From a virus, in the IMG/VR virus record IMGVR_UViG_3300037258_001228, positions 1 to 42,083 of that record: 42,083 bases of DNA, one strand, 5' to 3'. Numbering within the stretch: the stretch's first letter is position 1; the number at the start of each line of letters is the position of its first letter. This document shows positions 7,299 to 28,774 of the stretch, piece after piece. The translations under genes were made by a program, and so were the position numbers. A model generated the notes under the pieces. It was not told where the DNA came from and made no database searches. It saw only the letters and a program-made list of their open reading frames with translations.

Positions 7299-8807
7299 TT
7301 AGTAGTACCAGCCTCCGCCTGCACCTTCCCCGGTATACGGGGTGTTGGTCGACATGCTCGTGGATGGACCATTGAACAAGTTCGAGAGCGAGGTGCCCCA
7401 GCCCTTCATCGCGTTCTGCGCGGAATTGCTTCCGAGGAGGGACATCGCGCTGCCCAGCATCCCCTGGTTCGTCTGGGCGTTGAATGTGTTTGCTCCGGCC
7501 TGCGCCCCATACACGGAGTTGAACGCGCCCGAGGTGAACGGATTGTACATGGTCGAAAGCTGGTTGCCTGCCGTGACGGTGTTTCCGGCCTGAGTGAAAA
7601 GGTTGCTCGCGCTCCCGAGACCTCCGGACTGCTGGAGGAGATACGCAAGCGACGGGTTGCCCGTCGACTGAGCGAGTCCCGCCGCGCCCGAGAGCAGGCT
7701 CTGCTGGTACTGCGCATTCGCCATCTGCGCCTGCTGGTTCGACTGCCCGGCCGACAGCGCCTGCTGCCCCCCGGCCTGGAGCGCGCTGCCCTGGAGCCCG
7801 AGCGACTGAAGGAGTGCGGCAAGGTTCGACTGCTGGCCGGAAAGGTTCGTCGCCTGGTTGGCGAGGTTCGCCCCCTGCGTCAAGCCTGCCTGCGTCGTCG
7901 CGCCCTGGAGCCCCAGGCCCTGGAGCGCGATGTTCGCCTGCTGATTCTGGGTCCCGGCTGCGAGCCCAAGGGTCTGCTGCTGCGCCATAAGGGAGCCCGC
8001 ATTGGCCGCGTTCGTCTCCCGCTGTGTCAAGAGCTGCTGGCCGTAGGTGTCGAGCCCGGTCGCGAGACCTGCGATTGCCGTGGGGTCGTTCGAGCGCCCC
8101 ATGGAATTGTAGTTGCTCATGACCTGGTTCGCCACGGTCGAGCTTTCCTGCGGACTCATCGAGGTCCCGAGGGCCAACTGCTGCTGGGCCGTGCGGTTCA
8201 ACTGGTTCACTGTCGGGTTGTACCCCGCCGAGACGGCGCCCACGGCCTGCGGAGACCAGCCGAGCTGGGCCGCGCCAATCTGCTGAGCGTTCACATTGTT
8301 GCCCGTGATGCTCTGGCCCACCTGCTGGGCATAGGGCTGCGCCCAGCTCCCGGCCCCATTGATCTGGGAGATGGGCGACGGCGAACTCTGAGCCAAGCCC
8401 GTGTACTGCTGCTGCAGCGCCTGGAGCTGGGGGTTCGCACTCTGGAAGGCACTATTCATCTGCGAGCCCATGCCCGCGACCAGGTTCTCGCCTCCAGCCG
8501 CCTGAAACTGGTTTAGGTAGTTCTGCAGGCTCTGCATGTCGGCGCCATAGGTCCCATAGCCGGACATGAGCCCTGAGGCTGCCCCCTGGAGCATCGAGCC
8601 CTGGAGGCCAGTGTACTGGGGCGCATACTGCGCCGTCGTGGAGTACATGCCCGGAGCATACTCCTGCTCCGCGCCCAAGATGTCGCCTGCAGTCTCGCCA
8701 GGGTTCGGGGCCGTCGTCTGCACGCCGTTCGCTCCACCCCCGCTATTGGCCATGGAGCTGATGCCCCCAGCGATACCGACCACTGCTGCTACAGTTCCAA
8801 TGCTCAT
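7299..8807 (-). CDS. Gln/Ala-rich putative ejection protein
   Basis: A 502-residue protein very rich in Gln, Ala, Gly, Ser and Asn with many degenerate LQG/QQ segments. A Gly/Ala-rich hydrophobic N-terminus (about 3-20, IGTVAAVVGIAGGISSMA) may insert in a membrane. Low-complexity Gln-rich proteins of this kind are commonly virion core or tail-tip components in short-tailed phages. The ATG overlaps the stop of the sulfotransferase gene as ATGA (8804-8807), which rules out the longer upstream reading. The C-terminus is Gly/Tyr-rich. Confidence 0.65.
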   Translation of the reverse strand: MSIGTVAAVVGIAGGISSMANSGGGANGVQTTAPNPGETAGDILGAEQEYAPGMYSTTAQYAPQYTGLQGSMLQGAASGLMSGYGTYGADMQSLQNYLNQFQAAGGENLVAGMGSQMNSAFQSANPQLQALQQQYTGLAQSSPSPISQINGAGSWAQPYAQQVGQSITGNNVNAQQIGAAQLGWSPQAVGAVSAGYNPTVNQLNRTAQQQLALGTSMSPQESSTVANQVMSNYNSMGRSNDPTAIAGLATGLDTYGQQLLTQRETNAANAGSLMAQQQTLGLAAGTQNQQANIALQGLGLQGATTQAGLTQGANLANQATNLSGQQSNLAALLQSLGLQGSALQAGGQQALSAGQSNQQAQMANAQYQQSLLSGAAGLAQSTGNPSLAYLLQQSGGLGSASNLFTQAGNTVTAGNQLSTMYNPFTSGAFNSVYGAQAGANTFNAQTNQGMLGSAMSLLGSNSAQNAMKGWGTSLSNLFNGPSTSMSTNTPYTGEGAGGGWYY

Positions 8808-9778
8808 CGTATTAGCCTCTGATGCGCCAACACCTTCTGGGGGATGGCGGTGATCTTCATCTCGTCGTAAATCTTCCAACGCTGGGCGTTGAACGGCAGG
8901 CCCGTCGCGTACTCGGCCAATTCGCGCATGACGGCCTCCTCGTTCAGCTTCTCATAGCTGAAGCTCATGGCATCGGGGCACATGTCCCGCATCGCCTGGA
9001 AAGCGTCGCTGTATTTCGTCCAGCCTTCGTCTCCGTTGTGGGCCTCCAGCCCGTGAGCCTCTAGTTCCGCCTTCAGGGCGCGTCGGGCATCCTTGGGATC
9101 GCGCAGGATGAAGATCACCTTGTGGCCCTTCGGCAGGTCAGCCCGCAGTCCCGCATAGGTCAGGGCCATGAGCGGGCTTGAGTCCCCGACGACCGGCGTC
9201 CTGCTTGCGGAGAGAGCGTTCAGGTAGTCCTGGGGCTTGTCGCACCAGCGGCACAGCTCGTGATGGCAAGTCACGTCCCCGTCCGTCAGGAAGGCCGCGA
9301 GCCACGCCGTGCGGCTCCGGGGCAGACCCACGATGAAGAACGGCGGGTGGTCCCGGCGCATGTCGTCGAACCGCTCCCTCTCGACCAGGGAGTTGATCGT
9401 CGGCATGTACTTGTCGACGCCGGCCTGTCCGTGGAGGAGGAGACAGATCGCATTCGGAATCTGGACATAGGCGTAGTAACTCTCCCGCGAGCCGGGGCCC
9501 GCGTTCTTCCACGCCGTCAAGCACCCCGAGAGGATCGGGATCAGGGCGACCCGGCTCTTGTGGAACCAGTCGTTGAGAATCCAGTCCATCGTGATCGCGG
9601 TCATGGTCCGGTTCGCGCTCTCGCGGTCGATGGGGTCCCCGTCGACGATGTGGTCCCAGAGGAGGGCCGCATCCATGACCTGGACAAACCACCTAAACGC
9701 AGCGGGCTCATTCTTGCAGACATCCTGCATGACCGCGAGGTAGTCGGCGTGTAGCGAGGTAGAGAGGTCCCTGTGCAT
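8804..9778 (-). CDS. Sulfotransferase-like P-loop protein fused to an unknown N-terminal domain
   Basis: A 324-residue protein. The C-terminal half has the 5' phosphosulfate-loop-like motif FIVGLPRSRTAWL (about 148-160) and a 3'-phosphate-binding-like LRDPKDARRA (225-234), the two hallmark motifs of PAPS-dependent sulfotransferases. The N-terminal ~130 residues (DAALLWDHIVDGD at about 36-48) resemble a small helical domain seen in other phage proteins whose function I do not know. The gene sits between tail-fibre-like and ejection-protein genes and overlaps the latter by ATGA, so it is expressed with the virion proteins. It may sulfate a virion protein, or a host surface sugar made with the glycosyltransferases at 20301 and 24662. 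Confidence 0.8.
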   Translation of the reverse strand: MHRDLSTSLHADYLAVMQDVCKNEPAAFRWFVQVMDAALLWDHIVDGDPIDRESANRTMTAITMDWILNDWFHKSRVALIPILSGCLTAWKNAGPGSRESYYAYVQIPNAICLLLHGQAGVDKYMPTINSLVERERFDDMRRDHPPFFIVGLPRSRTAWLAAFLTDGDVTCHHELCRWCDKPQDYLNALSASRTPVVGDSSPLMALTYAGLRADLPKGHKVIFILRDPKDARRALKAELEAHGLEAHNGDEGWTKYSDAFQAMRDMCPDAMSFSYEKLNEEAVMRELAEYATGLPFNAQRWKIYDEMKITAIPQKVLAHQRLIR

Positions 9779-9779
9779 G

Positions 9780-10466
9780 TTACTGGACTGCGATTTTGCG
9801 GACCACGCCGTCGACGGTCGTCACGTTGATGAACCCGGTCGCCGTCACGGCCCCGGTGTTGAAGGTCCCGAACTCCATCGCGCCCCCGAAGTAGTTCGTC
9901 CCTGACTGGGAATAGATTGCGTAGGCATGGGTCGCGCTAGGGGGCGGGTTAATGTAGAGCTGGTAGGCATTGGCGAGAGTCCCGGACACGACCGAGCCCG
10001 GCGCGTAAATCGAAATGCCGCTATAGCTGACGCCCGTCTGGCCGTTCAGGTTGACGGTTCCTTCGCCGAACGTGGACTGGTAGAGGATGTCGGAGGTTGC
10101 CGTGGCGTTCAACGTGCCCCCGAGGGAGACCAGGATCGCCTGCCCTCCGCCCGCAGAGACCGAGCCAGCGAAGACGTTCAGGATGTTCGTCGAGAAGGCC
10201 GACGCCGTTCCTCCGAAGACGGAATAGCCCGTGACGCCCAGGTTCGTGAAGGTCGGCGTCAGCGAAACCGCAATGGAGGTCGCCGTCGCCACGAGGTTGG
10301 AGCCGATGGCCATCTCGCCGAAGAGGACGTTGGTACCGCTCGTCCCATTACCGAGAATCACCATGGCACTGGAGCAATACGCGCTCACCTGCACCATGTT
10401 CGTCAGATAAGAGGCGCTCGCCGTGTCGCCGTTGTTGATCGTGAAGGGGGGCTGGAAGTTCGGCAT
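9780..10466 (-). CDS. Tail-fibre-like structural protein
   Basis: A 228-residue protein rich in Gly, Ala, Ser, Thr and Asn with regular beta-strand spacing and few charges. The C-terminal part (GTNYFGGAMEFGTFNTG ... VRKIAVQ) resembles the ends of phage fibre proteins in which a sequence like YFGG precedes a trimeric tip. It lies between the large neck/tail protein and the sulfotransferase, with 3- and 1-base gaps, so it belongs to the tail operon. A fibre or adhesin role is inferred. Confidence 0.65.
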   Translation of the reverse strand: MPNFQPPFTINNGDTASASYLTNMVQVSAYCSSAMVILGNGTSGTNVLFGEMAIGSNLVATATSIAVSLTPTFTNLGVTGYSVFGGTASAFSTNILNVFAGSVSAGGGQAILVSLGGTLNATATSDILYQSTFGEGTVNLNGQTGVSYSGISIYAPGSVVSGTLANAYQLYINPPPSATHAYAIYSQSGTNYFGGAMEFGTFNTGAVTATGFINVTTVDGVVRKIAVQ

Positions 10467-10469
10467 GGC

Positions 10470-12335
10470 TCAGGTCGTCGCTGTGCTCTTCAGGTCCTTC
10501 ACGAAGGCCCCGATCTGGTAGTTGATGATCTGGCAGCGCCCGCTCGTGTTCTGGTAGACCAGCTCCACGGCATAGCCCCTCTTGTTGATGATCCCAGGCC
10601 GCGTCGTCTGCCCCGATACCCCGGACGTGTTCGTGATGACCGGCAGGTTCTTTGAGTCCTCCGGATTGATCGTGTTCGCGACGCCGGTCAGGGATGAATT
10701 GGCCTCCATCTGGGCAACCGTGATGACGCGGTTGAACCTCTTCAGGCTCGGGCTCCCGAAGTTGAAACGCCGGGTCTGAAACTCCCCGTTGATGAGGTAC
10801 TGGGTCGCGGGCTGCGCCGCCGCCGCGAAGTCATCCATCTCGTTCTGCTCGGCCGCGTAGAGACCGCCCTCGTAGGAAATAAGGTAGAGGGTCGGCGTCC
10901 CCGTCGCATCCAGCATCACCTGCATCTCGTCGCAGTAGAACCCATTCGGGAACGTGTCGTAGCTCTCCCACGCCTGGTTGATGAAATTGTACACCAACAT
11001 CGCATTGTTGCGCGTGGAGCCATTGACCGGGATCGCCAGATAGTAGCGGTTCAGGAAATACTGCGCATAGGCCGCGTTCACGGCCGAGAAGTTGATCGTC
11101 TGGATGAACGGATCGACCGAGGCCGATAGGGGTAGGGAATTGCCCCGCAGGGTCAGTTCGAAGCCCGGCTGGAGCATGTAGACGCCGCGCTCGTTCAGGA
11201 AAAGGACGTTCGAGCCGCAGGTCACAATTGTGTTGCGCGAGCAGCAACCAACAGTGTTCGTGACGAGCTGCGTCGTCATCGCAGCCACGTCCCCGTTGAC
11301 GTAATTCACGAGCCACACGGAGTAGCGCATGAAGACGAGCGTCTCCGTGTCCTGATAGGGCGCGGCCCCAACCAGGTAGTCGTTCGTCCCGATCCCGAAT
11401 CCGAAGACCCCGTTCAACTCATCGTAGAGGAGCGGCTGGTCAACGTCGGACATGATGATCTCATTCCTCGAATACTCCAGGATCGCCCTGTTCTGCTGCA
11501 GGAGCCCCCAGTCGCTCGGGGGCATGTAGATAAAGTTCTGCGAGCTGACCCCGTAGGAATTGAGGACAAACGGCTGCGCGAAGTTTCCGTCCCACACGAG
11601 CGGGGTCTTGAGCCGGTTCATGATGATCGTCCCGGAGGCGACCGAGGTCCCGGCCGCTCCTCCCAAGGTGATCGTGAACCCGGTCGGGCTTGTGACCGTG
11701 ATCTGGAAATCCCCGTCAAATGACGTGGGGTTCGCCCCTGCGATCCGGACGTACATGTTCGACGAGAGCCCGTTCGAGGTCGTTGTGTGAACGGTCGCCG
11801 TCGTGCTGGAGGCCACGGCCGTAATCGAGGCCACGCTGAACGAGGTCCCGAGGTCTCCCCGCAGGAGGAACACCTGGCCCGCGTCCTGGAAAAGGTTCGT
11901 CGAGGAGTCGATGGTCTCGACCAGCTCGTTCGCCGGGTACGCGATTGTGGTCACGCTCCCAGTGTCGGACGCGAAGGTATAGACCTTCGAGGCCGTCGCC
12001 ATGAAGATATACTGGGCGTTGTTGTTGTCCGGGTCCGCGAAGATGGTCGACGCGAAGATGCCATCCGTCGCGATTGCCGTAATGACAGAAGACGTGCCCA
12101 CCGTGAACGGGATGAAGAGGGGAGAGCTGCCGGGCGTGATCGCGTTCGTCTGCTTCGCCTGCCCCCTGCGAACCGTGGGCGCCAGTGTATCGAGGCGCAT
12201 GTTCTGCAGGTACTGCGCATAGCCCGGCGCGACCCGCTCGGGCTGCGTCCTCGCATCCATCCCCACAATCTGCTCGTCCCCCATCGTGGCGATGGGCGAG
12301 TCAGGCGGGAAGGAATCGTTGTAGCGGTTGTCCAT
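10470..12335 (-). CDS. Large neck/tail protein, beta-propeller-like
   Basis: A 621-residue structural protein. The N-terminus (DARTQPERVAPGYAQYLQNMRLDTLAPTVRRGQ) is typical of short-tailed phage tail-hub or DNA-stabilisation proteins, and the remainder shows repeated beta-blade patterns (VWLVNYVNGD, LYLISYEGGLYAAEQ). Size and place after the stopper-like protein fit the tail tubular B/gp10-type role. No long tape-measure or tail-tube genes are present nearby, supporting a podovirus-like tail. The start codon abuts the preceding stop by one base and has no Shine-Dalgarno. Confidence 0.75.
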   Translation of the reverse strand: MDNRYNDSFPPDSPIATMGDEQIVGMDARTQPERVAPGYAQYLQNMRLDTLAPTVRRGQAKQTNAITPGSSPLFIPFTVGTSSVITAIATDGIFASTIFADPDNNNAQYIFMATASKVYTFASDTGSVTTIAYPANELVETIDSSTNLFQDAGQVFLLRGDLGTSFSVASITAVASSTTATVHTTTSNGLSSNMYVRIAGANPTSFDGDFQITVTSPTGFTITLGGAAGTSVASGTIIMNRLKTPLVWDGNFAQPFVLNSYGVSSQNFIYMPPSDWGLLQQNRAILEYSRNEIIMSDVDQPLLYDELNGVFGFGIGTNDYLVGAAPYQDTETLVFMRYSVWLVNYVNGDVAAMTTQLVTNTVGCCSRNTIVTCGSNVLFLNERGVYMLQPGFELTLRGNSLPLSASVDPFIQTINFSAVNAAYAQYFLNRYYLAIPVNGSTRNNAMLVYNFINQAWESYDTFPNGFYCDEMQVMLDATGTPTLYLISYEGGLYAAEQNEMDDFAAAAQPATQYLINGEFQTRRFNFGSPSLKRFNRVITVAQMEANSSLTGVANTINPEDSKNLPVITNTSGVSGQTTRPGIINKRGYAVELVYQNTSGRCQIINYQIGAFVKDLKSTATT

Positions 12336-12336
12336 G

Positions 12337-14773: not shown

Positions 14774-15268
14774 TTACGCCGTGGCGGTCGGGTCGTACAG
14801 GCCCAGGAGGATCGTCATGAACCCGGTCGTGAAGCTCGACGCGAACCCGCAGGTGCAGGTCAGGACGGCCTGGAACGTGACCGAGGCCACGCCCGTCGAA
14901 GAGGCCGGCGTCGCAACCGTTCCGGGTCCATTCGGGGGCTGGTAGACGCCCGCCGTCAGGATCGAGAACGAGCTGGCGAAGGCGGTCGCCGTCGTGGTTG
15001 TGCCGATGGTGCATCCGAACGAGCTGGCCGCAGCCGAGCCCGCGAATGCGACCGGGATGTCAACGAGCAGCGAGGTCGCGATCCAGGTCGTCGGGGTCGT
15101 CCCCAGCGTGACCGTGATCGTATCGGCGCTGGCGCTCGACCCTGCGGCCTGGAAGACCGTATACGGAATCTGATAGCGGGCCGTGAAGGCTCCGCCTCCC
15201 GTGCTGCGTTCCGGCAGGATGAGGGGCGAGATGTTCGCCCCGGCAAGTGCAACAGTGTAGTTAGCCAT
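14774..15268 (-). CDS. Putative head decoration or minor capsid protein
   Basis: A 164-residue protein low in charge and rich in Thr, Ala, Ser and Gly with beta-strand spacing. It follows the major capsid protein gene by 18 bases, the usual place for a decoration or head-fibre protein. GGAG lies about 10 bases ahead of the ATG, one of the few visible Shine-Dalgarno sequences in the late cassette. A hairpin-like inverted sequence (GGGCATACGGCTGCTCCC on the minus strand) lies after its stop, near 14730-14755. Confidence 0.65.
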   Translation of the reverse strand: MANYTVALAGANISPLILPERSTGGGAFTARYQIPYTVFQAAGSSASADTITVTLGTTPTTWIATSLLVDIPVAFAGSAAASSFGCTIGTTTTATAFASSFSILTAGVYQPPNGPGTVATPASSTGVASVTFQAVLTCTCGFASSFTTGFMTILLGLYDPTATA

Positions 15269-15286: not shown

Positions 15287-16315
15287 TTATGAGCTGGCGT
15301 AGAACTTCCCGAGGCCCTTCGGGTTCTTCACCATGAGCGTGAGGACCGTCTTGATGAGGCCTCGCCTGCCGGCGCCCTGGTCGGGCAGCTCCTGGTTGTT
15401 GAGCCCGATCATGTAGCCGATCCCGACGAGGTCGGGGTCGATCACGTAGCCACGCGCACGGGACTGGTTCGAGTGAGGGAAGCTCGTGCCCACGGTGCCA
15501 GAGGCACCCTGAGACTGGGAGAGCAGGCCGTTGAACAGGTCCGGTACGATGGTGACCGTGTGGAAGTCGCCGTTGTAGAGGTCGACATGGAGGTCAATCT
15601 CGTGCTGCTCCGCAGCTTGGACGACCTGGTACGTCTGGGTTGTCCCAGAAGCTCCGGTCACCCGCTGGAAGAGCGAGATGTACTTCTTCAGGTTCGAGCC
15701 CGCCGTGAGCGTGTAGGCGCGCTTGCCGCCGTTCTGCTCGTAGATGGACTGAAAGACCGTGTTGAAGTTCGTCTCCGTCAGGGACGCCGTCGCCGTGTTG
15801 TTCAGCGAGTTGGTCGGGGTGACGTAGGCCGTGGGGACGGCGTGAACCGTCTGCGTGCCGCCGATCCACATGCCGAGGCCCCTGAACAGGTACGGGACGC
15901 TGCCGTTGTCGGCCTGCATCTCGTTGTCGGAGCCGATAGCGGCCTCGATGTCGCGCTTGATCTCGCGCAGCTTCTTCATCTTGGCGTTGGCAACCTCGTT
16001 CGAGATGCCCGCCACGTCCGCTGCCTCGACGATGTCCGACACGGCCCACTTCCTCCAGAACTTCTGGACGTAGTTGCCGATGCGGGCGCGGTTCTCGGCC
16101 GCGTTGTCGAAGGTGGAGGCGTCAACGCCCTCCAGGACGCCCGAGAAGTTCGGGGGGAACAGGTTGTCGACCTGCCACTCCTGGTAATAGGAGGTCGGGC
16201 GGGGCGACTTGTTGAACATCGAGAGCTTAGGGGTATCCTCAGGCTCCAGAATGGTAAGGAAGTCCGTGAGGTCTTCCCTGATGCCGGCTATATTATAGGT
16301 CGTTGATTCTGCCAA
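15287..16315 (-). CDS. Major capsid protein, DUF5309/SU10 type
   Basis: This 342-residue protein would form the icosahedral shell (HK97-like fold). The N-terminus YNIAGIREDLTDFLTILEP with TPKLSMF, then the YYQEWQVDNL motif, an N-terminal arm with repeated basic helices (YVQKFWRKWAVSDIVEAADVAG) and KREIEAAIGS-type helix match the DUF5309 capsid family. The start is TTG at 16315 with no Shine-Dalgarno; the first in-frame ATG would remove about 32 conserved residues. This is unusual for the most abundant virion protein. It sits 3 bases after the scaffold-like gene. Confidence 0.9.
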   Translation of the reverse strand: MAESTTYNIAGIREDLTDFLTILEPEDTPKLSMFNKSPRPTSYYQEWQVDNLFPPNFSGVLEGVDASTFDNAAENRARIGNYVQKFWRKWAVSDIVEAADVAGISNEVANAKMKKLREIKRDIEAAIGSDNEMQADNGSVPYLFRGLGMWIGGTQTVHAVPTAYVTPTNSLNNTATASLTETNFNTVFQSIYEQNGGKRAYTLTAGSNLKKYISLFQRVTGASGTTQTYQVVQAAEQHEIDLHVDLYNGDFHTVTIVPDLFNGLLSQSQGASGTVGTSFPHSNQSRARGYVIDPDLVGIGYMIGLNNQELPDQGAGRRGLIKTVLTLMVKNPKGLGKFYASS

Positions 16316-17881: not shown

Positions 17882-18178
17882 TCATGAACCCACCTCCTCA
17901 TCGGTCCCATCCCAGAGGAACTCCGAGACGGGCAGATGATCCCCGCAGCCCATGCAGAACGTGGCCCCGTAGAACTTCGGGTCCCGGGCGTAGGTCTCGC
18001 AGAGCGCGAGCCCCATCGTCGTCACCGTGCCGCAGGTCTTGTGGATGTACTTGCGACGCACAGGGCGCACGAAGCCCTTGGCCCGTTCTTCCTCGGAAAG
18101 GACGAGGTACTTCTCGTTCTGCCCGTCCGGCCGCGTCTTATGCAGGTCCGGGTCCTTGGGGTCTGTCGTCAGGCTCAT
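17882..18178 (-). CDS. Small zinc-ribbon-like phage protein
   Basis: A 98-residue protein with four cysteines in the order C49, C60, C75 and C78 (TCGTVTTMG, CETYARDPKFYG, FCMGCGDHLP) that could bind one zinc ion. The segment RDPKFYGATFCMGCGDHLP is a pattern I know from unnamed proteins near phage portals. The ATG overlaps the portal stop as ATGA. It may assist packaging or head assembly, but its role is unknown. Confidence 0.75.
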   Translation of the reverse strand: MSLTTDPKDPDLHKTRPDGQNEKYLVLSEEERAKGFVRPVRRKYIHKTCGTVTTMGLALCETYARDPKFYGATFCMGCGDHLPVSEFLWDGTDEEVGS

Positions 18179-20304
18179 GCTCCGAAGCGGCCGATCTTGG
18201 CGTTGTTCTGCTGGGTCGCCTGGAACTGGAGCTGCTTGGCATACTTCTGGACGCGCTCCTGGAGGGAGGGGTCGCCCATCATCCTCTGCTGCACGTCGGG
18301 CGACTGCATCCACTTCTGGATGACCTGCATCCCCAACTGCGGGGGTGTGCCCAACTTGATGTCCTTGTCGATGCCGGCGTACATCTGCGTCAGGTCTCCC
18401 TGGACCTGGGCCTGCACCTGCTGGGCGCCCGTGTCTGCCGGCAGGACCACCTGCTCGGCGATGGCCGGGTCAATCGACTGGATCAGGAGCGGGATCAGCT
18501 TCGAGGTGTCGATCTGGCCGTTCGAGTCGAAGGAAGCCTTGATCTTCGCGATGGCCTCGAACTTCTGAATCTGGGTCTCCTGGTCGAGGCTCTGAACGTC
18601 GAAGGAGAGCATGACCTGGTAGTCCTCCTGCGGGTCGCCCTTCTCCATGACCTGCATGGGGGCCTTGGCGAGGCCGGTCACGCGGAAGAGCTGCTTCGCG
18701 TCCCCGTACTGCTGCCAGAGCTTCCAGACCATCCGATAGACCTGGGTCCAGCACTGGAGGTACTTGTCGATTTCATACTGGCCGATGGAGGCCGCGAGGG
18801 ACGGGTCGTCGACGCCTGGGTTGATGACGCCCTCATACTCGTTGAAGGTCCGGACGAGGATGCTCTCGGATTCCTCCGTATTGGAGTCGCCCATCGGGTG
18901 ATCCGCATGGTGATACTCGCCCGGACGCCTCTCCGGGACGCGCGCCCCGGGACCCCAGCGTGTCGGGGGCCTGCCCAAGGGGTACATGATCGGCGGCATG
19001 ATCGCGATGGAGGCCGCGTCGATGCGGGAATCCCGATGCGCCTTGATCTGGTCCTGCCAGCTCTTGCCTGGCTCCGGGACGCCGCGCGTATCATGGAACT
19101 TGCGCGAGAGGAACTCCCTCGGGAACTTCACGAAGGGGTACATGCCGTGCTGGTAGCCGAGGAGTCCGAACTTGGCATAGCCCTTACCGGGCGAGTCCTG
19201 CGTGATGAACGGGTTGAAGATCGTCAGATAGATGCCCGGGACCCCGTCCTCGTCGGACAGGCGCTGATAGCTGTACACGACGCCGACCAGGTCCGTGTAC
19301 ATGATCTTCCTGTCGATATAAACGAAGGACCGGCTGATCGGCTGCAGGGTCGAGTCCGGGACGGTCGTAATCATCTTGCCCCGGCACTTCTTGATCGCCT
19401 CCTCGACCCAGTCGGCGTCCCAGTCCTCAGTCCGCACGAAGCTGCGGAGCTGCTCGGCCGAGAAATACTCGACGCGGAAGATGTAGGGCGCCGTCTCGAT
19501 GTCCGTCGCCCAGGACGGGACGAAGACATCGCGATCGAGGCAGAAGGCGCGTATCACGGGCCGGCTGATCTCGGGCCCCAGAACCGGGACCGTCGTCTCC
19601 CGGTCCTTCTTCAGCTCGCGGAGCATGGTCTTCGCCTTGCGCCCGGAGACCCCATAGATTTCCTCGAAGACAGCCGCGATCTTGTCCTGGAGGGCCGGAT
19701 GCTTGATCGCCGTGTCCACGTCGAGCTGCGGGAACTTCGCCTTGAAGTCGTCCAGCTTGAGCGTCTTCAGGGTCTTCTCCTGAATCGTCTCCCAGAAGAC
19801 GCCCATGAGGCCGATGCCCTTTTCCAAGATGTAGTTCCCGAGCAGCTCGGCCTCGCGCTCCTGGTGGGGGACTTGGGTCGAGACCAGCCAGCGCAGGAAG
19901 TTGCCCACGACCTCGGCCCGTTCGACATCGGTCCCATTCACGGGAACCGCGACCATGTTCGCCTTCTTGAGCGCCAGGCCATACCGGGCCAGCTTGTAGC
20001 GGATCACGGCGTCGACCATGTAGACCCTCAGGTCGCTGGCCCCATCCCACGGCGTCGGGTCGCTCTTGCCGCTGCCCTCGCGCGAGTGCTTCTTGCCGTC
20101 CGCGCTCTGGCCGTTCCAGATGGCGTAGCGGGTCTCGTAGTTGAGCCGGCACTGGTCGACAAAGGGCTGATTATCCGAGACGGTCATCTCGAAGGCCTGG
20201 AGGACCGTCTGCATGTTGGGGCCGTCCCCCTCGCTCGGGGCCAACTGGAACGCCGGGTCCCGACGCTCTTCGGTTGCTGTTCCTGTTCCGTCGAAGCTGC
20301 TCAT
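18175..20304 (-). CDS. Portal protein
   Basis: A 709-residue protein that would form the ring at the head vertex through which DNA is packaged and ejected. The N-terminal motif TPWDGASDLRV (about 84-94) followed by a helical segment is characteristic of portals of short-tailed and related phages. The central beta-rich part with VPVLGPEISRPVIRAF and the tail region with FNPFITQDSPGKGYAKFGLLG support the call. The C-terminus is Gln/Met-rich and helical (about 600-700), as in portal barrel extensions. It is between the glycosyltransferase and zinc-ribbon genes, with ATGA overlaps on both sides. Confidence 0.85.
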   Translation of the reverse strand: MSSFDGTGTATEERRDPAFQLAPSEGDGPNMQTVLQAFEMTVSDNQPFVDQCRLNYETRYAIWNGQSADGKKHSREGSGKSDPTPWDGASDLRVYMVDAVIRYKLARYGLALKKANMVAVPVNGTDVERAEVVGNFLRWLVSTQVPHQEREAELLGNYILEKGIGLMGVFWETIQEKTLKTLKLDDFKAKFPQLDVDTAIKHPALQDKIAAVFEEIYGVSGRKAKTMLRELKKDRETTVPVLGPEISRPVIRAFCLDRDVFVPSWATDIETAPYIFRVEYFSAEQLRSFVRTEDWDADWVEEAIKKCRGKMITTVPDSTLQPISRSFVYIDRKIMYTDLVGVVYSYQRLSDEDGVPGIYLTIFNPFITQDSPGKGYAKFGLLGYQHGMYPFVKFPREFLSRKFHDTRGVPEPGKSWQDQIKAHRDSRIDAASIAIMPPIMYPLGRPPTRWGPGARVPERRPGEYHHADHPMGDSNTEESESILVRTFNEYEGVINPGVDDPSLAASIGQYEIDKYLQCWTQVYRMVWKLWQQYGDAKQLFRVTGLAKAPMQVMEKGDPQEDYQVMLSFDVQSLDQETQIQKFEAIAKIKASFDSNGQIDTSKLIPLLIQSIDPAIAEQVVLPADTGAQQVQAQVQGDLTQMYAGIDKDIKLGTPPQLGMQVIQKWMQSPDVQQRMMGDPSLQERVQKYAKQLQFQATQQNNAKIGRFGA

Positions 20305-21059
20305 ATTGCGATCTTGTCACGCACGGTAACGGGAGCCTGTGTGGGCGCCTCCTGTCCGGGGGGCTGTTCGGGATACCCTCGGCCACCATCCCAGTGCATG
20401 ACATAGAAACCCGTGTCCGCGTAGATGGGGAAGCCCGCCTCCCGGCACCTCTTGCAGAAATAGAAGTCCTCCGTGAGGAAGGTCGGCTTGTCGAAGACCT
20501 CGTCCGTCACGATTCCCTCGGAGAAGAAATCCCACTTGGTCTCGCCCCTGTGCTCCGCCCAGTCCTCGATGTGCGCGATCTCGGGGTGTTCGCGCCTGAT
20601 CTTCTCAAACACCTCGCGCCGCACGAGGAGGAACCCGGTCCCGACTGCGGCCATTTCCTGCAGGCGCGTCTCGGGGTCCGGGCGCTTGCCCTCGATGGCG
20701 CGGCAGGACCAATCCAGTCCTGGCTTCTTGTGGCAATAGGGACCCCAGACCACGGGCTTGTTGTGCGAGATGAGGCGCTCGACGTGGCCCGGGTCGAAGG
20801 AGATGTCCGTGTCGAGCGACAGGTACAGGTCCGCGTCGCACTTCGTTAGGAACTGGTACGCCAGGCTGTTCCTGGCCTTGTGTATCCCGCCCTGCGATAC
20901 ATTGGAAATCGTGACCCGGAACTTCCCGCAGTTCACCAGCGCGATCATGCTCATCATGAAGCGCGTGTGGACCCGGTTGTCGTGCGAAGTCATCGCGACA
21001 AACAGGTGAGGAGGGAGCGGGGCCGTGGGCGTATGGCCGTTGCGTGAGAGGTCGATCAT
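20301..21059 (-). CDS. GT-A fold glycosyltransferase (family 2-like)
   Basis: A 252-residue protein. HLFVAMTSHDNRV (about 19-30) starts the nucleotide-binding fold; DADLYLSLDTDISFD (about 76-90) holds the DxD metal-binding motif at 83-85; VGTGFLLVRREVFEKI (139-154) and TEDFYFCKRCREAG (196-209) match acceptor-side motifs, including the ED catalytic pair. It would transfer a sugar from a nucleotide sugar to a host polysaccharide, a virion protein or DNA. It is placed between terminase and portal with an ATGA overlap to the portal gene, so it is expressed with virion genes. The ATG at 21059 directly follows the terminase stop. Confidence 0.85.
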   Translation of the reverse strand: MIDLSRNGHTPTAPLPPHLFVAMTSHDNRVHTRFMMSMIALVNCGKFRVTISNVSQGGIHKARNSLAYQFLTKCDADLYLSLDTDISFDPGHVERLISHNKPVVWGPYCHKKPGLDWSCRAIEGKRPDPETRLQEMAAVGTGFLLVRREVFEKIRREHPEIAHIEDWAEHRGETKWDFFSEGIVTDEVFDKPTFLTEDFYFCKRCREAGFPIYADTGFYVMHWDGGRGYPEQPPGQEAPTQAPVTVRDKIAI

Positions 21060-21061: not shown

Positions 21062-22699
21062 TCAGTAGGAAAAGGTCTTGCCGGGCGCCGTCATGGCCGA
21101 GGGCTCGATGAAGTCGGCGCCGGTCTCCAGGAGGTAGCGGACCACGTCGATGCCGTCCTTCCAGACCTCGGTCCGCGTGCAGCCCGTGAAATTCTTGAAG
21201 CACTCGATGAGCTGCTCGCAATTGGACGAGACGTAGAGCTGCGGATGATTCATGACCCCGACTGGCTTCGACTCGTCATAGCCCAAGCGGTCGGAGATGA
21301 GGGAAATCCCGTGCTCCACGTCGAGGCCTGGGGCCGCGATCAGGATCATCCCGGCGTCCTGCATCTCGGAAATGATAGAGGTCGCCGACTCGCGGCCGGG
21401 CACAGTCGAGGCCCCGAGGCGCGGGTCAATGACGCGCTCAAAGACATCAACGCCGTCAGAAGCCTCCAATTCCTTAATGGTGTCGACGTAGTCGTAGATG
21501 CCGAAGCCATTCGGGCGCATTGCGGGCCCAGGTGAGCCATCCAGTTTCTCGCTCGGCTCGCCCCAGGCGCCGGCTCCGATGTCCGGCCAGTCGCGGTAAA
21601 TGTAAATCGTCCCATCGCGTGCGACCGCAGCCCAGATCATGAACCACGGCTTGCGGCCGGACGGGTCGATGACGTGGTAGAAGGTGAAGTTCGAGGTGGG
21701 CTCGGGCTCGTCCTTCTTCTTCCAGGGCAAATCGTCGTCCTTCACGATGTGGACCTTGTCCGAGAACTTCGGGAACTTGGTCGTCGAACTGCGCGTCGGA
21801 ATCCCATGGGCCACAGCCAGCACCTCGGCCTCGGGGCGCCCGCGCATCCGCTCGATGGTCTCAGGCGGGATGAAGGGGTTGTCCTGGGTCCAGAAGTAGT
21901 AGATACGCGTCTGCTTGCGGGTCAGACTCTCCTGGGCGACGGGAATCTCCCTGCCCAGGAGGCCTGAATAACGACGCCTAAGGGTCTTAGTACGGCCCAG
22001 CACATCGGCTATTAGGGCGCTCCAGCCTTGGATCGTCGTAAATGAGAGGAGCACCCGGCCGCGCACGTCGAAGGTCCGCGTCAGGAGGCGCTCAAACATC
22101 TTCTGGGGCATCTCCTCGTCGCCCCAGATGGCATGAGCCAGGAACCCCTCCACGACCTGGGCGTCCTGCCGGTACTGCGAGTAGTTACCGAAGACCAGCT
22201 CCGCGCCCCGGGCGCAACCGGGCTTGGGCGGCAGGATCAGCTTGTTGCCGACAAAACCGTTCCGCTGCGTGTAGGTCGTCGAGAATGTCCCGCTCCTCTT
22301 GCCCGACAGGTCCCTATACTTCTTGGGGAGGCATTCCCAGATGAAGCTCTGCTGATCCGTGACGCTCCGGGCCTCCGAGATGTGATAGGCCCGCAGCTTG
22401 CACTCCGGGATCGTCTCCAGGAGGAAGACGAGGAGCCGGGCGACGAAGGTCGACTTGCTGGAACGGTTACCACCCAAGATGACGTGCGTGTGGTAGTTCT
22501 TCCACTCAGCCATGACCTCGCGCCATGAATCGAGGACCCAGCCGAAGGCCACGGGATCGTCAGCGGCCATGCGCTCGATCCGCTCGCGGTTCTCGAAGTC
22601 GCGCGAAAGCTCCCCTGCATCGAGGGAGTAGTCCTTAGTGTCGTACCCGGGCCACGGGATGCCAAAATCAACGGGTACTCGGTCGGCGTAGTGGATCAA
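21062..22699 (-). CDS. terL: Terminase large subunit
   Basis: A 545-residue DNA-packaging ATPase and nuclease. Walker A is GGNRSSKST (76-84); Walker B is AIWGDEE (190-196), ending in acidic residues; the coupling SFTTIQGWSAL region follows. The C-terminal nuclease shows VIDPSG near 345 and VIDPRLGAS near 435 with acidic metal ligands. The start is TTG at 22699, preceded by GAGG at short distance; the first ATG (residue 44) would cut into the ATPase. It would act with a small terminase, possibly the 22706 product, and the portal. Confidence 0.95.
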   Translation of the reverse strand: MIHYADRVPVDFGIPWPGYDTKDYSLDAGELSRDFENRERIERMAADDPVAFGWVLDSWREVMAEWKNYHTHVILGGNRSSKSTFVARLLVFLLETIPECKLRAYHISEARSVTDQQSFIWECLPKKYRDLSGKRSGTFSTTYTQRNGFVGNKLILPPKPGCARGAELVFGNYSQYRQDAQVVEGFLAHAIWGDEEMPQKMFERLLTRTFDVRGRVLLSFTTIQGWSALIADVLGRTKTLRRRYSGLLGREIPVAQESLTRKQTRIYYFWTQDNPFIPPETIERMRGRPEAEVLAVAHGIPTRSSTTKFPKFSDKVHIVKDDDLPWKKKDEPEPTSNFTFYHVIDPSGRKPWFMIWAAVARDGTIYIYRDWPDIGAGAWGEPSEKLDGSPGPAMRPNGFGIYDYVDTIKELEASDGVDVFERVIDPRLGASTVPGRESATSIISEMQDAGMILIAAPGLDVEHGISLISDRLGYDESKPVGVMNHPQLYVSSNCEQLIECFKNFTGCTRTEVWKDGIDVVRYLLETGADFIEPSAMTAPGKTFSY

Positions 22700-23338: not shown

Positions 23339-23721
23339 GGAAGAGTGTCGTCTATCCACTTGATGAGGACGGGCGACTGGAAGCGGGGCCGGAAACCGTT
23401 GTCGTGAATCCCGAGCCCGCCGTTCTGCTCGAACCCGCAGGAGCAGGGGTTGGTTGTGCAGAAAGCATTCCCAGGCCTGATGCTCACGGCCTTCCATTTC
23501 GGAAGCTTCGCCTCGTGCGGAGGCTTGCCGATCATGAATTCGACAAGGTCCGTGAAATCCTCTCGGAAACCGTGAATGCCAATATCGTGATCTCCCTCAA
23601 GGTCGGGTGCCCGGATGTTTTCCCCTGGCTCTGGCGTCGGGAACGCCAAGACATTCTTGGAAATGACCGGAGCTGCCAATGCTCCGAGCCCGAGGAATCG
23701 CAGGAAGCCGCGCCTAGTCAT
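23335..23721 (-). CDS. Small protein with twin-arginine export signal
   Basis: A 128-residue protein starting MTRRGFLRFLGLGALAAPV, a textbook twin-arginine signal (RRGFL) with hydrophobic core and an Ala-x-Pro-like end, then residues about 25-128 with four cysteines, including FCTTNPCSCGF, that could bind metal or form disulfides. Folded export would place it in the host periplasm. It is in a chain of small genes upstream of the terminase. No family is recognised. A second Tat-signal gene lies at 26935. Confidence 0.8.
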   Translation of the reverse strand: MTRRGFLRFLGLGALAAPVISKNVLAFPTPEPGENIRAPDLEGDHDIGIHGFREDFTDLVEFMIGKPPHEAKLPKWKAVSIRPGNAFCTTNPCSCGFEQNGGLGIHDNGFRPRFQSPVLIKWIDDTLP

Positions 23722-24202: not shown

Positions 24203-24206
24203 AGAT

Positions 24207-24665
24207 TTAACGGCGCCATACACGCCAGCCTCCCTGTCGTTCATCTGGGTTTTTCTCGATGGGGAAGGTCTGGCCAATGAGCCGGCCCCGGGTTGCGCCC
24301 GCAAGCTGCTGCTCCCGCAGGCTCATCCAGGCCAAGACCTCGCGCCTCTTGTGCTCAGGCAGGTCGAAATCGTCCTCTAGGACCATGACCTTCTGTAGCT
24401 CGTTGCCCAATTCCCGCTTCACCCGGGCCCATTTAACCCCTTCTGGGACCGGATCGCGCACGGGTTTAAATTCCGGGTAACGATAGGCGTCGGGGCTCGA
24501 CTGGATCGGAACCGGCTCCGGGACTGAGACCGGCTTCCATCCCGGGGCCCCGACGAAGGCCTGGATCATCCCGTGCCTCTTCATATAGGCCACGGCCTCG
24601 TCCGGGAGGCCCTTGTTCATGAGCTGCACGACGTACCTCTCGCGGCCTGGACGTGCGTTCCTCAT
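24207..24665 (-). CDS. Hypothetical protein
   Basis: A 152-residue protein with a Pro-rich middle (VPEPVPIQSSPDAYRYPEF) between helical ends. ATG overlaps the previous stop as ATGA (24662-24665). Unknown; it sits between the glycosyltransferase-like gene and the small helical gene. Confidence 0.65.
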   Translation of the reverse strand: MRNARPGRERYVVQLMNKGLPDEAVAYMKRHGMIQAFVGAPGWKPVSVPEPVPIQSSPDAYRYPEFKPVRDPVPEGVKWARVKRELGNELQKVMVLEDDFDLPEHKRREVLAWMSLREQQLAGATRGRLIGQTFPIEKNPDERQGGWRVWRR

Positions 24666-25366
24666 CCGCTCCTCACGTAGTCGATGATGTCCGGGGTCTG
24701 GGGGTCGGGCCCGATCACGGTCCCGTCCTTCCTCACGGTCGTGAACCAGGCCGAGAGCGTCGCCGTGGACAGCATGTGCCCACGCTCCATGGATTCCAGT
24801 ATGAGGGTCTCGGGGTGGAGCGGGGCGCCGGCCTTCAGCATCTCAGGCACGCGCTGGAAGGTCGTGAAGTAGACCGGGGCCGCGCTCTCGCCCAGGACCG
24901 CAACGCGGTCATTGATGCCGCCCCAGCGACTCCACCAGGGCGTGAAACAGAAGATTGGATTCACCCTCTTAGGCCACTTGAACCAGTGGAAGTGCAGGTC
25001 CGGGCGAATGCGCAGGAACATGTCGAAGCGAACGCCCTTCGGCGCCTCCTTCAGGAAGAACTCCCAGCCACGATTCAGGGCCCAGAGCTGCTTCAGGATG
25101 CCCATCGGATGCGCGCTCGGAGGATACGCTCCGAAATCGAGGCCCGAAGGGGGAAGCTCCAGGGTCGGCTGCTCGACCTTCTCGATGAAGACCCTCTCCT
25201 TCGGCATACGCCGAAGAAGAAGATCCATTTTCGAGGCGTCGGCATCATCCGCGACCGAAACGAAAAAGTACGGGTCCACGGCCTTCCTGTAGACAATCCA
25301 GAACTGGTTGTCCCATACGCGCTCGAAGCTGCGGGCCTGTCCCGAGATGATTATTGCCGTGGCCAT
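24662..25366 (-). CDS. Glycosyltransferase-like protein (surface polysaccharide type)
   Basis: A 234-residue protein. It starts MATAIIISGQARSFERVWD, and has FLRIRPDLHFHWFKWP at about 117-132 and WGGINDRVAVLG at about 148-159. This order (GQ/GLxRSF, RxRPDL, NDxxAxG) is that of a family of glycosyltransferase-like proteins in capsule and O-antigen loci. It would work with the 20301 glycosyltransferase and the radical SAM gene two positions downstream. The start overlaps the preceding 25351 gene by 16 bases. Confidence 0.75.
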   Translation of the reverse strand: MATAIIISGQARSFERVWDNQFWIVYRKAVDPYFFVSVADDADASKMDLLLRRMPKERVFIEKVEQPTLELPPSGLDFGAYPPSAHPMGILKQLWALNRGWEFFLKEAPKGVRFDMFLRIRPDLHFHWFKWPKRVNPIFCFTPWWSRWGGINDRVAVLGESAAPVYFTTFQRVPEMLKAGAPLHPETLILESMERGHMLSTATLSAWFTTVRKDGTVIGPDPQTPDIIDYVRSG

Positions 25367-25548
25367 AGAGTCCCGTTCGTGAACTCGCGCACCTTCTTCT
25401 TCACCTTCGCCGACACGTAGGGGAGGGGAATGACGACGACCGGCCTCCAGAGCGGGTCCCTCTTGCCATAGGTCTCGTAGATTACCTGCGGCTCTATATC
25501 CATGGTCTTCGTCCAGCCGAAGCGCGGCCGATTGTCGGGGGTCTTCAT
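25351..25548 (-). CDS. Small hypothetical protein
   Basis: A 65-residue protein (PRFGWTKTMDIEPQVIYETYG). ATG25548 overlaps the stop of the 27-residue gene upstream as ATGA. Unknown family. Confidence 0.6.
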   Translation of the reverse strand: MKTPDNRPRFGWTKTMDIEPQVIYETYGKRDPLWRPVVVIPLPYVSAKVKKKVREFTNGTLWPRQ

Positions 25549-25628
25549 GGGTTGCGGGCGAGGACGAGGAGGCCGAACGGGTCGATCAGGAACTCCTCGA
25601 TGCGCCATTCGCGGTCGGCGTCGCTCAT
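25545..25628 (-). CDS. 27-residue microprotein
   Basis: A very short gene coding MSDADREWRIEEFLIDPFG and eight more residues. Its ATG overlaps the radical SAM gene's stop as ATGA (25625-25628), and its own TGA overlaps the next ATG as ATGA (25545-25548). That double coupling argues for translation. Its role may be to carry ribosomes between neighbours or to act as a small peptide. Confidence 0.65.
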   Translation of the reverse strand: MSDADREWRIEEFLIDPFGLLVLARNP

Positions 25629-26938
25629 ACGGCCATGTGCTCGCGCTTCATCTGCCCATCCGGGTTTGCGACATAGGAAGCGTCTTTGATCGCATTTGGA
25701 TACGCCTTCAGGGCCTCCCCCTGCTTCATGTTCGCGAGTGGGGTCCCCTCAATCTCGGCCGTGCCTGAGAGCTGGTAGGAATCGAGCGGCAACTTGCGGA
25801 TGAAGGCCATGGTCTGGGCCCGCTGCGCATCGGTTTCGCCAGGGAGCCCGACCGTGAATGTCCCGTGGACCGTCATGCCCAGCTCCTTCAGGTAGTGGAC
25901 CGTGGCCTCGCCCTCCGCCAAGTCGAGGCGCTTGTTGATGATCTTGTCGATGACCTCCTGTGAGCCTGACTCGAATCCGACCTTCACCCCGAAGCAGCCC
26001 GAGTCCTTCATCTCCTTCCAGACCTCGCGGGTCGAGGTGTCTGCCCGGCACATGGCCGACCAGGGCAGCTTCACCTCGCGCATGACCTCACACATTTCCA
26101 GCGTGTGCTTGTTGACCAGGTTGAACGTGTCATCGTCGAAATAAATGCTCCGGTACTTGTAGCGGCCGATCATCTCATCCAGGTACGCCTTCATATGCTC
26201 CTTGGAGTAGACCCGGACACTCCTCTTGCCTGAGCCCGTGGGATCGTTCCCGGTCATGACCGCAGGCCAGACACAGAAGCAGCACCTATACGGGCATCCG
26301 CGCGAGGCCCAGAGCTGGAGGTGAGGCCAGACCTGGCCCCGGGGGTTCGTGTCACAGTAATGGGTCGCCGTGATGTCGTCCATCATCGGGATCGGGGCAG
26401 AATTCATCTCCTCGACCGTCAGGAGGTCGTTCTCGACGAGACCCCTGGCGCCGTTCACGACCTTGACCGAGCCTTTCTCGTACTCGCCCTTGATGTAGGC
26501 ATCGGCTAATTCCTCGGCCGCGTGGCCGGCGATGGGCCCGGTCAGAATGACCTTGGTACGCGGACTGCTTGTTCGGATGCGCGCGAGCAACTTCTTGTCG
26601 TGCCCCCAGGCGCTGGTCGCGGACTCGATGAAGATGAAGTCCGGCATGAGCCACGCCAGATAGTCGAAGAATGTCGCATAGCTCTCGCCCCTCGTAATCG
26701 AGTCCCGGAAAATGACCTGGGCCTCAGGGACCGCCTTCTGGACGTAGCTCGCGGCATAGCCCATGAAGAACGGGAACGGGTAATAGGCCCCGAACCGGAA
26801 ATGGTCCGGCAGGTACGCGGCCTTCTCCGTGAACGGCCACCGTGAGCCCGCGCGCCGGCCCTGACGGAGCATATAGGACCCATCCGGGGCCTTCTCCTCA
26901 GACGACCACCAGGGCGGGTTCGAGAAGAGGATTTTCAT
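25625..26938 (-). CDS. B12-binding-type radical SAM protein
   Basis: A 437-residue protein. The N-terminal half (KILFSNPPWWSSEEKAPDG, about 2-20, then a Rossmann-like region with FIFIESATSAWG and KVILTGPIAGHAA at about 101-140) matches the cobalamin-binding domain found in radical SAM methylases. The radical SAM core starts at SRGCPYRCCFC, whose C215, C219 and C222 would hold the 4Fe-4S cluster (C-x3-C-x2-C), followed by YFDDDTFN and VGFESGS, typical core strands. ATG26938 was chosen because it overlaps the preceding stop by four bases. It may methylate a sugar, lipid or protein. Confidence 0.9.
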   Translation of the reverse strand: MKILFSNPPWWSSEEKAPDGSYMLRQGRRAGSRWPFTEKAAYLPDHFRFGAYYPFPFFMGYAASYVQKAVPEAQVIFRDSITRGESYATFFDYLAWLMPDFIFIESATSAWGHDKKLLARIRTSSPRTKVILTGPIAGHAAEELADAYIKGEYEKGSVKVVNGARGLVENDLLTVEEMNSAPIPMMDDITATHYCDTNPRGQVWPHLQLWASRGCPYRCCFCVWPAVMTGNDPTGSGKRSVRVYSKEHMKAYLDEMIGRYKYRSIYFDDDTFNLVNKHTLEMCEVMREVKLPWSAMCRADTSTREVWKEMKDSGCFGVKVGFESGSQEVIDKIINKRLDLAEGEATVHYLKELGMTVHGTFTVGLPGETDAQRAQTMAFIRKLPLDSYQLSGTAEIEGTPLANMKQGEALKAYPNAIKDASYVANPDGQMKREHMAV

Positions 26939-27288
26939 GCGCGGCGCTTCTTCACGGGCCTCAACTTCTTCTTCATCGCCTTCCACTCGGCGCCGGAAAC
27001 GCCTACGCGCTGAACCGGCTTCCCGAACTCGTCGCGTTTGACGCCGTGCATCCTCTTCGCGCTCACCTTGAAATAGTCCTCCATCTCCTGTGCCGAGATG
27101 CTATCGTCCCGGTTGTTGCTAGCCTGGCGATAGATTCCCGCGTAGGCCGGGGGTGTCTGCCCAAGAACGACAGTGATCGTGTCCTTCGCGGCCGGAGGCG
27201 GCATTGGAGCCGGCTCCGCCTTGTCCTCGGGAATGAACTTCACGAGGCCGAGGCCAAAGAACGACTTCATAAAGCCGCGACGGTTCAA
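26935..27288 (-). CDS. Second small protein with twin-arginine signal
   Basis: A 117-residue protein beginning MNRRGFMKSFFGLGLVKF, another RRGF twin-arginine-like signal, though its hydrophobic core is short. The mature part has VVLGQTPPAYAGIYRQASNNR and ends in a basic tail (KKLRPVKKRRA). The start is TTG at 27288, overlapping the previous stop (TTGA). Two such proteins in one phage suggest folded export to the periplasm matters in this virus. Confidence 0.75.
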   Translation of the reverse strand: MNRRGFMKSFFGLGLVKFIPEDKAEPAPMPPPAAKDTITVVLGQTPPAYAGIYRQASNNRDDSISAQEMEDYFKVSAKRMHGVKRDEFGKPVQRVGVSGAEWKAMKKKLRPVKKRRA

Positions 27289-27515: not shown

Positions 27516-27592
27516 GCGCGCAGGACACAAGAATCCTGACGCACCCCGCAACCTCTTTCTGCGGAATGAAGCTATTTGGAAGTTACCGGGAG

Positions 27593-28126
27593 CTACATCT
27601 CCCCGTTACCGACCACGGGGCCAGAAGTTCCCCGTGGAACATTCAGGCTCACGAGTCGGGAAATCTCAGCGTCACGTAGGGCAATGACTGCGCGTACCCC
27701 GACCAATTCCTTGGCCATCCGATCATCACACATAGCGATGTCGTCGGCCAGCAAACACCCCGGGAACCCATGGGGGCATTTCCCGATGGAATCCACTCCA
27801 CAGTAGTGGCATGGCATGACCTTAGCCGCGATCCCGCGAAGGATGTCGTTTTCATCATGCAGGCGCTTGTTCTCCTGCATGTTCATGAGCGCGATCCGGG
27901 CCTCGACCGCGACCTGAGCCTTCAGCTCCTCGATCCGCGCCATCATCTTCCAGACTTTGTGGCTCTTAATCATGCGCTCGCGGTCCTCGGCGATGGCTCC
28001 GCTGCGGAACGCTGCGATCATTCCAGCTACTGCGGTGATGTCCTGGGTCTTTCCTGGATAGCTGACGCCCAAGAGAATGTCCCGCGCCAGCTTAGAGTCT
28101 CCTTCAAGCACCTCGAATATGCTCAT
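27593..28126 (-). CDS. Coiled-coil protein with cysteine-rich segment
   Basis: A 177-residue protein with a long helix (about 45-100, KMMARIEELKAQVAVEARI) and a Cys/His cluster C106, C109, C117, H119, C124 (PCHYCGVDSIGKCPHG), suggesting zinc binding. It is preceded at 32 bases by the GTTTTGTGTTG element, with a dyad. Unknown role. Confidence 0.65.
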   Translation of the reverse strand: MSIFEVLEGDSKLARDILLGVSYPGKTQDITAVAGMIAAFRSGAIAEDRERMIKSHKVWKMMARIEELKAQVAVEARIALMNMQENKRLHDENDILRGIAAKVMPCHYCGVDSIGKCPHGFPGCLLADDIAMCDDRMAKELVGVRAVIALRDAEISRLVSLNVPRGTSGPVVGNGEM

Positions 28127-28143
28127 TTCCCTTACCTACACCC

Positions 28144-28170
28144 TGTGTTGCCCCTTACAACACAAAACCC
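28144..28170. promoter_or_regulatory. GGTTTTGTGTTG element with dyad, ahead of the 28126 gene
   Basis: On the minus strand GGTTTTGTGTTG (28170-28158) continues into CAACACA, so TGTGTTG (28144-28150 on the plus strand) and CAACACA (28158-28164) form a perfect 7-bp inverted repeat around a 7-base spacer. It lies 32 bases ahead of ATG28126. It could be an operator or a leader hairpin. Confidence 0.55.
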
Positions 28171-28174
28171 CAGC

Positions 28175-28774
28175 CTAATTCCACTCCAGGACCGTCATGA
28201 AATTCAGGTGCCCGATAACGAGGCTGATCGGGAAGTGGTACAACTTCCTCAGGCGCACGGTCGCTCCCGGCCGCAGGCCGCACTCCCCAAAGAGCTTCAT
28301 CCACTCGTCCCGGGACAGGTACTTGTGCGGGCAGGCCACGCCGTGCTTCGTGTTGCCGACATAGTCCATCCCCCGCAGGAGGGTCCACGCCATGGGCCCG
28401 TTCCGGGGATGGTCCTTTAGGAGCACGCGCCCGGAGCCGACCCGCGCGGCCTCAGACAGGAGCCGCTTCTGGTCGAGGGAATGATGAACCACATCAACCA
28501 GCATCGAGACATCAAAGGTATTGTCAGCGAAAGGCAGCTTCAGGCCGTCAAACGCCGTGACAGGAATCCTGCAGCCCGGTCTCGACTGGACCTCGGCGCC
28601 CTTGATCGTGATGTCGCTGCGCAACCCCTGTAACTGCTCGGCGAACATCCCGTCCCCGCAGCCCACGTCCAGGACATTCGCACCAAAGGGGATCATCTGC
28701 GCCGCAGCCTCGGCCATCACGCGGACCCTGCGGGTATGCACGTAGTTGCCGTGGAGCTTGTCGACAATGAGCAC
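28175..28774 (-). CDS. Class I SAM-dependent methyltransferase
   Basis: A 199-residue methyltransferase. KLHGNYVHTRRVRV (6-19) leads to motif I VLDVGCGDG (34-42), then PFADNTFDVSMLVDVVHHS (about 83-101) and a last core strand RVLLKDHPRNG. The start GTG28774 keeps the conserved N-terminus; the open frame extends further upstream but loses similarity there. The GGGTTTTGTGTTG element lies 35 bases ahead. Substrate is unknown; a small molecule, sugar or lipid is likely, given the neighbouring enzymes. Confidence 0.85.
   Translation of the reverse strand: MLIVDKLHGNYVHTRRVRVMAEAAAQMIPFGANVLDVGCGDGMFAEQLQGLRSDITIKGAEVQSRPGCRIPVTAFDGLKLPFADNTFDVSMLVDVVHHSLDQKRLLSEAARVGSGRVLLKDHPRNGPMAWTLLRGMDYVGNTKHGVACPHKYLSRDEWMKLFGECGLRPGATVRLRKLYHFPISLVIGHLNFMTVLEWN

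Follow-up and report, generated by a model that had tools for sequence, protein, structure and literature searches.

Few phages are known to glycosylate their virions. In mycobacteriophages, as summarised in PMC12619734, glycans occur on capsid and tail-tube subunits (Freeman et al., 2023). Pelagimyophages carry cassettes of lipopolysaccharide (LPS) and radical SAM genes in their host-recognition region (PMC7029224), and radical SAM proteins are described in Campylobacter phages (PMC3322345). Thus, both phage virion glycosylation (PMC12619734) and the occurrence of radical SAM genes with LPS genes in phages (PMC7029224) have already been reported. A sugar substrate is on record for AprD4, the radical SAM diol dehydratase of apramycin biosynthesis, which acts on the aminosugar paromamine (PMC5461906). 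For the gene pair that is the subject of this study, which encodes a radical SAM protein (RSAM) and a glycosyltransferase (GT3), we found no description in the literature searched, which covered few subscription journals.

We analyzed the whole IMG/VR virus record IMGVR_UViG_3300037258_001228 (42,083 bp; hereafter, the window). Its virion arm lies on the minus strand and contains a terminase large subunit, a portal-type protein, a scaffold region, a major head protein, and tail genes. Since a tyrosine integrase is encoded at the left end, the phage is probably temperate. Near the right end, genes for tRNA-Cys and tRNA-His are adjacent (40573-40725). The preliminary description had placed five enzymes in the virion arm, and all five ORFs do share the minus strand with the head genes. 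The features discussed below are as follows.

1..1233, plus strand: tyrosine integrase (PF00589; phrog_1, E = 6.5e-18)
8804..9778, minus strand: ST, probable sulfotransferase in the tail arm (PF13469, E = 6e-4, under the cut-off; phrog_10855, E = 7e-8)
14774..15268, minus strand: 164-aa protein, 28.7% Ser+Thr, directly following the major head protein; relatives have homologues at the corresponding position
15287..16315, minus strand: major head protein (phrog_1328, E = 6e-51)
18175..20304, minus strand: portal-type protein, 709 aa, assigned by position and relatives (119 viral relatives; weak tblastn match to annotated portal proteins)
20301..21059, minus strand: GT2, phage glycosyltransferase of the phrog_1574 family (E = 8e-20; weak match to phrog_34859, 'glycosyltransferase')
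21062..22699, minus strand: terminase large subunit, TerL (phrog_2, E = 3.9e-9)
24207..24665, minus strand: 152-aa protein, ATGA overlap with GT3; a homologue (59% identity) adjoins GT3 in the relative L002
24662..25366, minus strand: GT3, GT-A-fold glycosyltransferase, 234 aa (AF2 and Foldseek); core of the proposed module
25351..25608, minus strand: 85-aa ORF between RSAM and GT3 (ORF call)
25625..26938, minus strand: RSAM, AprD4-like radical SAM protein, 437 aa (PF04055, E = 2.7e-17); core of the proposed module
26935..27288, minus strand: 117-aa protein with no assigned function, Tat-like start (NRRGFMKSFFGLG), ATGA overlap into RSAM
27593..28126, minus strand: 177-aa protein between MT and RSAM, no Pfam or PHROG match
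28175..28909, minus strand: MT, class I SAM methyltransferase of the Methyltransf_11 family (PF08241, E = 8.8e-11); the ORF start is uncertain, 28774 being possible

Enzymes of the virion arm

The enzyme identities first assigned to these ORFs held for RSAM, as a radical SAM protein, and MT, which are both solid by Pfam, for GT2 through phrog_1574, and for GT3 through its AF2 model. The match of ST is weak: its PF13469 score of 20.6 bits lies under the cut-off of 27 for this sulfotransferase family, and its motif GLPRSRTAW appears PAPS-loop-like by eye.

RSAM belongs to the radical SAM superfamily, as its PF04055 score exceeds the cut-off and it carries the cluster motif CxxxCxxC (C215/C219/C222), which is invariant across 13 phage homologues. 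The best PDB match of the RSAM model (pLDDT 86) is AprD4 (6fd2; TM 0.72), which is also its nearest solved structure by sequence (E = 1e-23, about 19% identity). RSAM therefore resembles AprD4-type radical SAM dehydratases in both fold and sequence. The fold also matches the B12 enzymes OxsB and TsrM, and the score against the B12-binding domain PF02310 (E = 0.011) is under the cut-off; the B12-type label first given to RSAM is tentative.

GT3 was unrecognized by Pfam, where its match to DUF7796 is distant (E = 0.01). Its AF2 model (pLDDT 92) matches GT-A transferases, with Foldseek pairing it with BoGT6a, GTA, and GTB (probability 1.00, E about 2e-6, TM about 0.5). The protein has the GT-A fold, and residues of the nucleotide-sugar site are conserved, R121, D123, G150, D153, and R154 being invariant. 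At the sequence level, GT3 falls outside CAZy family GT6 (13% identity, TM 0.47, no Pfam GT6 match).

Four ATGA overlaps had been described as linking enzymes to small genes. All four are real (ST with 7299-8807, GT2 with the portal gene, GT3 with 24207-24665, and 26935-27288 with RSAM), but only two of the partners are small. The others are the 709-aa portal-type protein and the 502-aa virion-arm protein encoded by 7299-8807, and MT has no overlap. The small proteins encoded at 26935-27288 and 23335-23721, which flank the RSAM-GT3 region, have Tat-like twin-arginine starts (MNRRGFMKSFFGLG, MTRRGFLRFLGLGALAAP), and neither has a Pfam or PHROG match.

Linkage of RSAM and GT3 in phages and bacteria

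An alignment-based scan of IMG/VR identified RSAM homologues in 37 viral contigs (about 50-60% identity), where a single-protein scan gave one viral relative; as the patterns used were phage-derived, the scan may favor phage-like RSAMs. Among isolated-phage genomes, tblastn detected essentially no relatives of RSAM, GT3, ST, or MT. In a tree of RSAM proteins, the phage group splits cleanly from the bacterial proteins (support 99/93), and the phage form is therefore not a set of recent acquisitions from hosts. Some relatives contain an intein-like insertion in RSAM exactly at the middle Cys of CxxxCxxC (SRGCPYK^CLAGDTLV...VFYAN(D/N)VLVKN^CCFC, carets marking the junctions). This insertion is longer in L115 (ORF about 2230-4590), with an HNH-like stretch, and mini in L116 (ORF 9986-11743) and L118 (ORF 1200-3098). 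In L123, RSAM is split at the same site.

When the ORFs of RSAM loci were clustered, the recurring gene near RSAM was GT3. Using HMMs on six frames to score gene presence, we detected GT3 in each of the 22 records tested after retrieval with RSAM alone, among them L082 and the L100/L124 record. HMM mapping placed the two genes 2-700 bp apart in nearly all loci; after dereplication, 9 of the 13 lineages had a gap no larger than 700 bp (binomial P about 1e-9, assuming a 5% chance). Gene orders included RSAM-GT3, RSAM-MT-GT3, and MT-GT3-RSAM, with one clade in which the genes are 3-4.5 kb apart; this variation points to selection acting on the pair, not to simple descent. RSAM and GT3 protein distances are also correlated (Mantel r 0.50, p 0.0003, n = 12). 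Of the accompanying GT3 tree we used the topology and this Mantel test; its group counts, in which L086 and L090 were wrongly scored as without RSAM, were left aside. The usual third gene encodes a small Methyltransf_24 enzyme and often lies between RSAM and GT3, while larger phage cassettes also include a nucleotide-sugar epimerase and further glycosyltransferases.

Some cassettes are located between terminase and portal, others adjoin the major head protein, and others separate head from tail genes. The head proteins of these phages belong to phrog_1328 (the window), 1005, 3437, 283, and 617. The exception is the L094/L116 lineage, where the recognized neighbors of the cassette are not head genes. 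In L084-L093, the tail genes are separated from the major head protein by a large inserted glycan cluster, which encodes two Glycos_transf_2 proteins, Methyltransf_24, RSAM, GT3, and sometimes an epimerase.

The other enzymes are distributed differently. GT2, which lies between TerL and the portal gene, has homologues at the corresponding position in L002 (64% identity) and L004 (47% identity). Of 25 portal-family relatives whose flank was long enough, 24 carry a GT2-type gene, which puts this lineage at odds with the statement that most phages carry one such enzyme or none. The nearest relatives differ: L002 has GT2 and GT3 without RSAM, and L003 lacks all three. As these genes are variable, decoration would not be needed for assembly. 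RSAM was detected in none of 17 portal-family records with a profile that did detect it elsewhere; many contigs are partial, and absences apply to the stretches covered. We found no ST homologue in L002 or in any of 34 other phage records, and the MT family was likewise missing from all 34. ST and the Methyltransf_11 MT were accordingly rejected as module members, and by their distribution look like lineage-specific extras.

The five enzymes had been proposed to act as one joint system, and in related phages they are not co-conserved as a set. What survives of this proposal is the linkage of RSAM and GT3 across phages, with variable methyltransferase and GT2 partners. Judged from sequence comparison, the five-enzyme set is a conserved RSAM-GT3 pair, a lineage-wide GT2, and two extras, ST and MT.

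We identified bacterial RSAM homologues at 77 loci. Their neighbors include GT2s, epimerases, UDP-glucose dehydrogenase, Wzt/ABC-2 transporters, and flippases, and most lie in surface-polysaccharide loci rather than protein-glycosylation loci. GT3 is scarce in bacteria (2/388 and 1/398 genomes at E <= 1e-15); copies in Opitutaceae and Chthoniobacter rule out that it is strictly viral. In the Opitutaceae loci L128 and L135, a gap of 33-39 bp separates RSAM from GT3, and the pair lies immediately downstream of flagellin, with FliD close by; flagellin and FliD were identified by BLAST and Pfam. Each locus resembles a flagellin glycosylation island (about 5.9-13 kb) with FliD, one or two flagellins, RSAM, and GT3. 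GT3 is followed by an FkbM-type methyltransferase in L135 and by HAD phosphatase, NTP transferase, and WavE-type genes in L128. A third Opitutaceae locus, L175, has the RSAM-GT3 pair at a contig end.

Proposed function and alternative explanations

From the genes, their folds, linkage, and context, we infer that RSAM and GT3 could form the core of a cytoplasmic phage glycan pathway that would be expressed late. RSAM would perform radical chemistry on a sugar, most likely deoxygenation, given its kinship with AprD4, and less likely C-methylation. The small methyltransferases may cap the modified sugar, and GT3, as well as GT2, would transfer sugars. The acceptor would most likely be a virion protein that receives its glycan before the particle is assembled or while it is, much as flagellin is glycosylated before export. 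The benefit could be an altered particle surface. Speculatively, the Ser/Thr-rich protein encoded at 14774..15268 is a candidate acceptor.

The module very probably carries out sugar chemistry, because RSAM matches AprD4, GT3 has a GT-A fold, homologues occur in bacterial polysaccharide loci, and phage cassettes contain an epimerase and glycosyltransferases. A cytoplasmic pathway is suggested because the enzymes are predicted to lack transmembrane segments and no multi-pass protein occurs in the window or near RSAM: no ORF in the window has more than two predicted segments, and across 14 phage loci, no protein with at least three was within 4 kb of RSAM. Since there is no multi-pass membrane partner and RSAM-GT3 adjoins flagellin and FliD in L128 and L135, the target may be a protein. 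That this protein belongs to the virion has, in our estimate, about an even chance, and we hold the whole proposal, a cytoplasmic RSAM-GT3 glycan pathway with a virion protein as its most likely acceptor, with equally balanced confidence. More tentatively, an ancient, phage-specific RSAM-glycosyltransferase pair may, across head types, place a radical-modified (deoxygenated or C-methylated) sugar on virions by a flagellin-like cytoplasmic route. The main proposal has observations against it: most bacterial RSAMs are in polysaccharide loci, the L094/L116 cassette lies away from recognized head genes, and the nearest relatives vary in enzyme content.

Alternatively, the enzymes may remodel the host surface. 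In an infected cell or a lysogen, they would alter the O-antigen of LPS or a different surface polysaccharide and thereby block co-infecting phages. The surface-polysaccharide setting of bacterial RSAM relatives and the probably temperate nature of the phage are consistent with such a role, and the authors who described the pelagimyophage LPS and radical SAM genes interpreted them in this way (PMC7029224). However, neither the window nor the surroundings of RSAM in the 14 phage loci contain a flippase, a polymerase, or a membrane protein of the gtr type. The genes belong to the virion arm, which a lysogen presumably keeps silent, and GT3, scarce in bacteria, adjoins flagellin where it is paired with RSAM (L128 and L135). 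We consider host-surface remodeling unlikely. Of the two targets initially suggested, host surface and virion, the evidence favors a virion protein over host LPS because the enzymes are soluble and lack a membrane partner, their neighbors are head genes, and the pair adjoins flagellin in two bacteria.

It is improbable that the five enzymes are unrelated accessory genes, gathered independently and without joint function. The lack of the ST and MT families in the 34 other phage records, the lack of RSAM in the 17 portal-family records, and the differing enzyme content of close relatives all fit this explanation, but for RSAM and GT3 it is already contradicted, because the two genes are linked in phages that differ in head protein and in gene order, as well as in Opitutaceae. 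Hypermodification of phage bases against restriction is the least probable explanation and very doubtful: although phage glycosyltransferases are known to modify DNA (PMC12619734 and its references), Pfam and PHROG scans, each covering ten other window proteins, recognized neither a base-hydroxylating gene nor a thymidylate-synthase-like one, relatives occur in loci for polysaccharides and flagellin, and the genes sit with the virion arm.

If a virion protein is indeed the target, many uncultured aquatic and soil phages would make a radical-modified sugar for their particles, which would bear on receptor binding, particle masking, and host defense. RSAM adjoining GT3 would then be a marker for glycosylated virions in metagenomes. 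The bacterial loci point to testable flagellin sugars in Opitutaceae, and the RSAM family offers new AprD4-like enzymes that may act on sugars.

Comparison with known systems

Like the gtrABC serotype-conversion morons, the window combines a probably temperate phage with predicted glycan chemistry. It differs in having no GtrA/GtrB/GtrC-like multi-pass membrane protein and in the location of its genes in the virion arm. Pelagimyophages resemble it in that glycosyltransferase and radical SAM genes occur together in aquatic phages; in these myophages, compared with the window by gene description, the cassette is instead part of a hypervariable host-recognition cluster.

With AprD4 (6fd2), RSAM shares the radical SAM core and an N-terminal Rossmann-like domain, a likeness known from sequence and model. 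AprD4 differs in serving antibiotic synthesis, together with its reductase partner AprD3.

Glycosyltransferases are phage encoded both in mycobacteriophage virion glycosylation and in the window, where they lie in the virion arm. The summary of the mycobacteriophage system describes no radical SAM component, and its phages and hosts are different ones; the window module is known from its genes. Bacterial flagellin glycosylation islands are a further parallel: in L128 and L135, RSAM-GT3 adjoins flagellin and FliD, and the filament subunit would be the acceptor. In the window, the neighbors of the pair are not flagellin but phage head and packaging genes.
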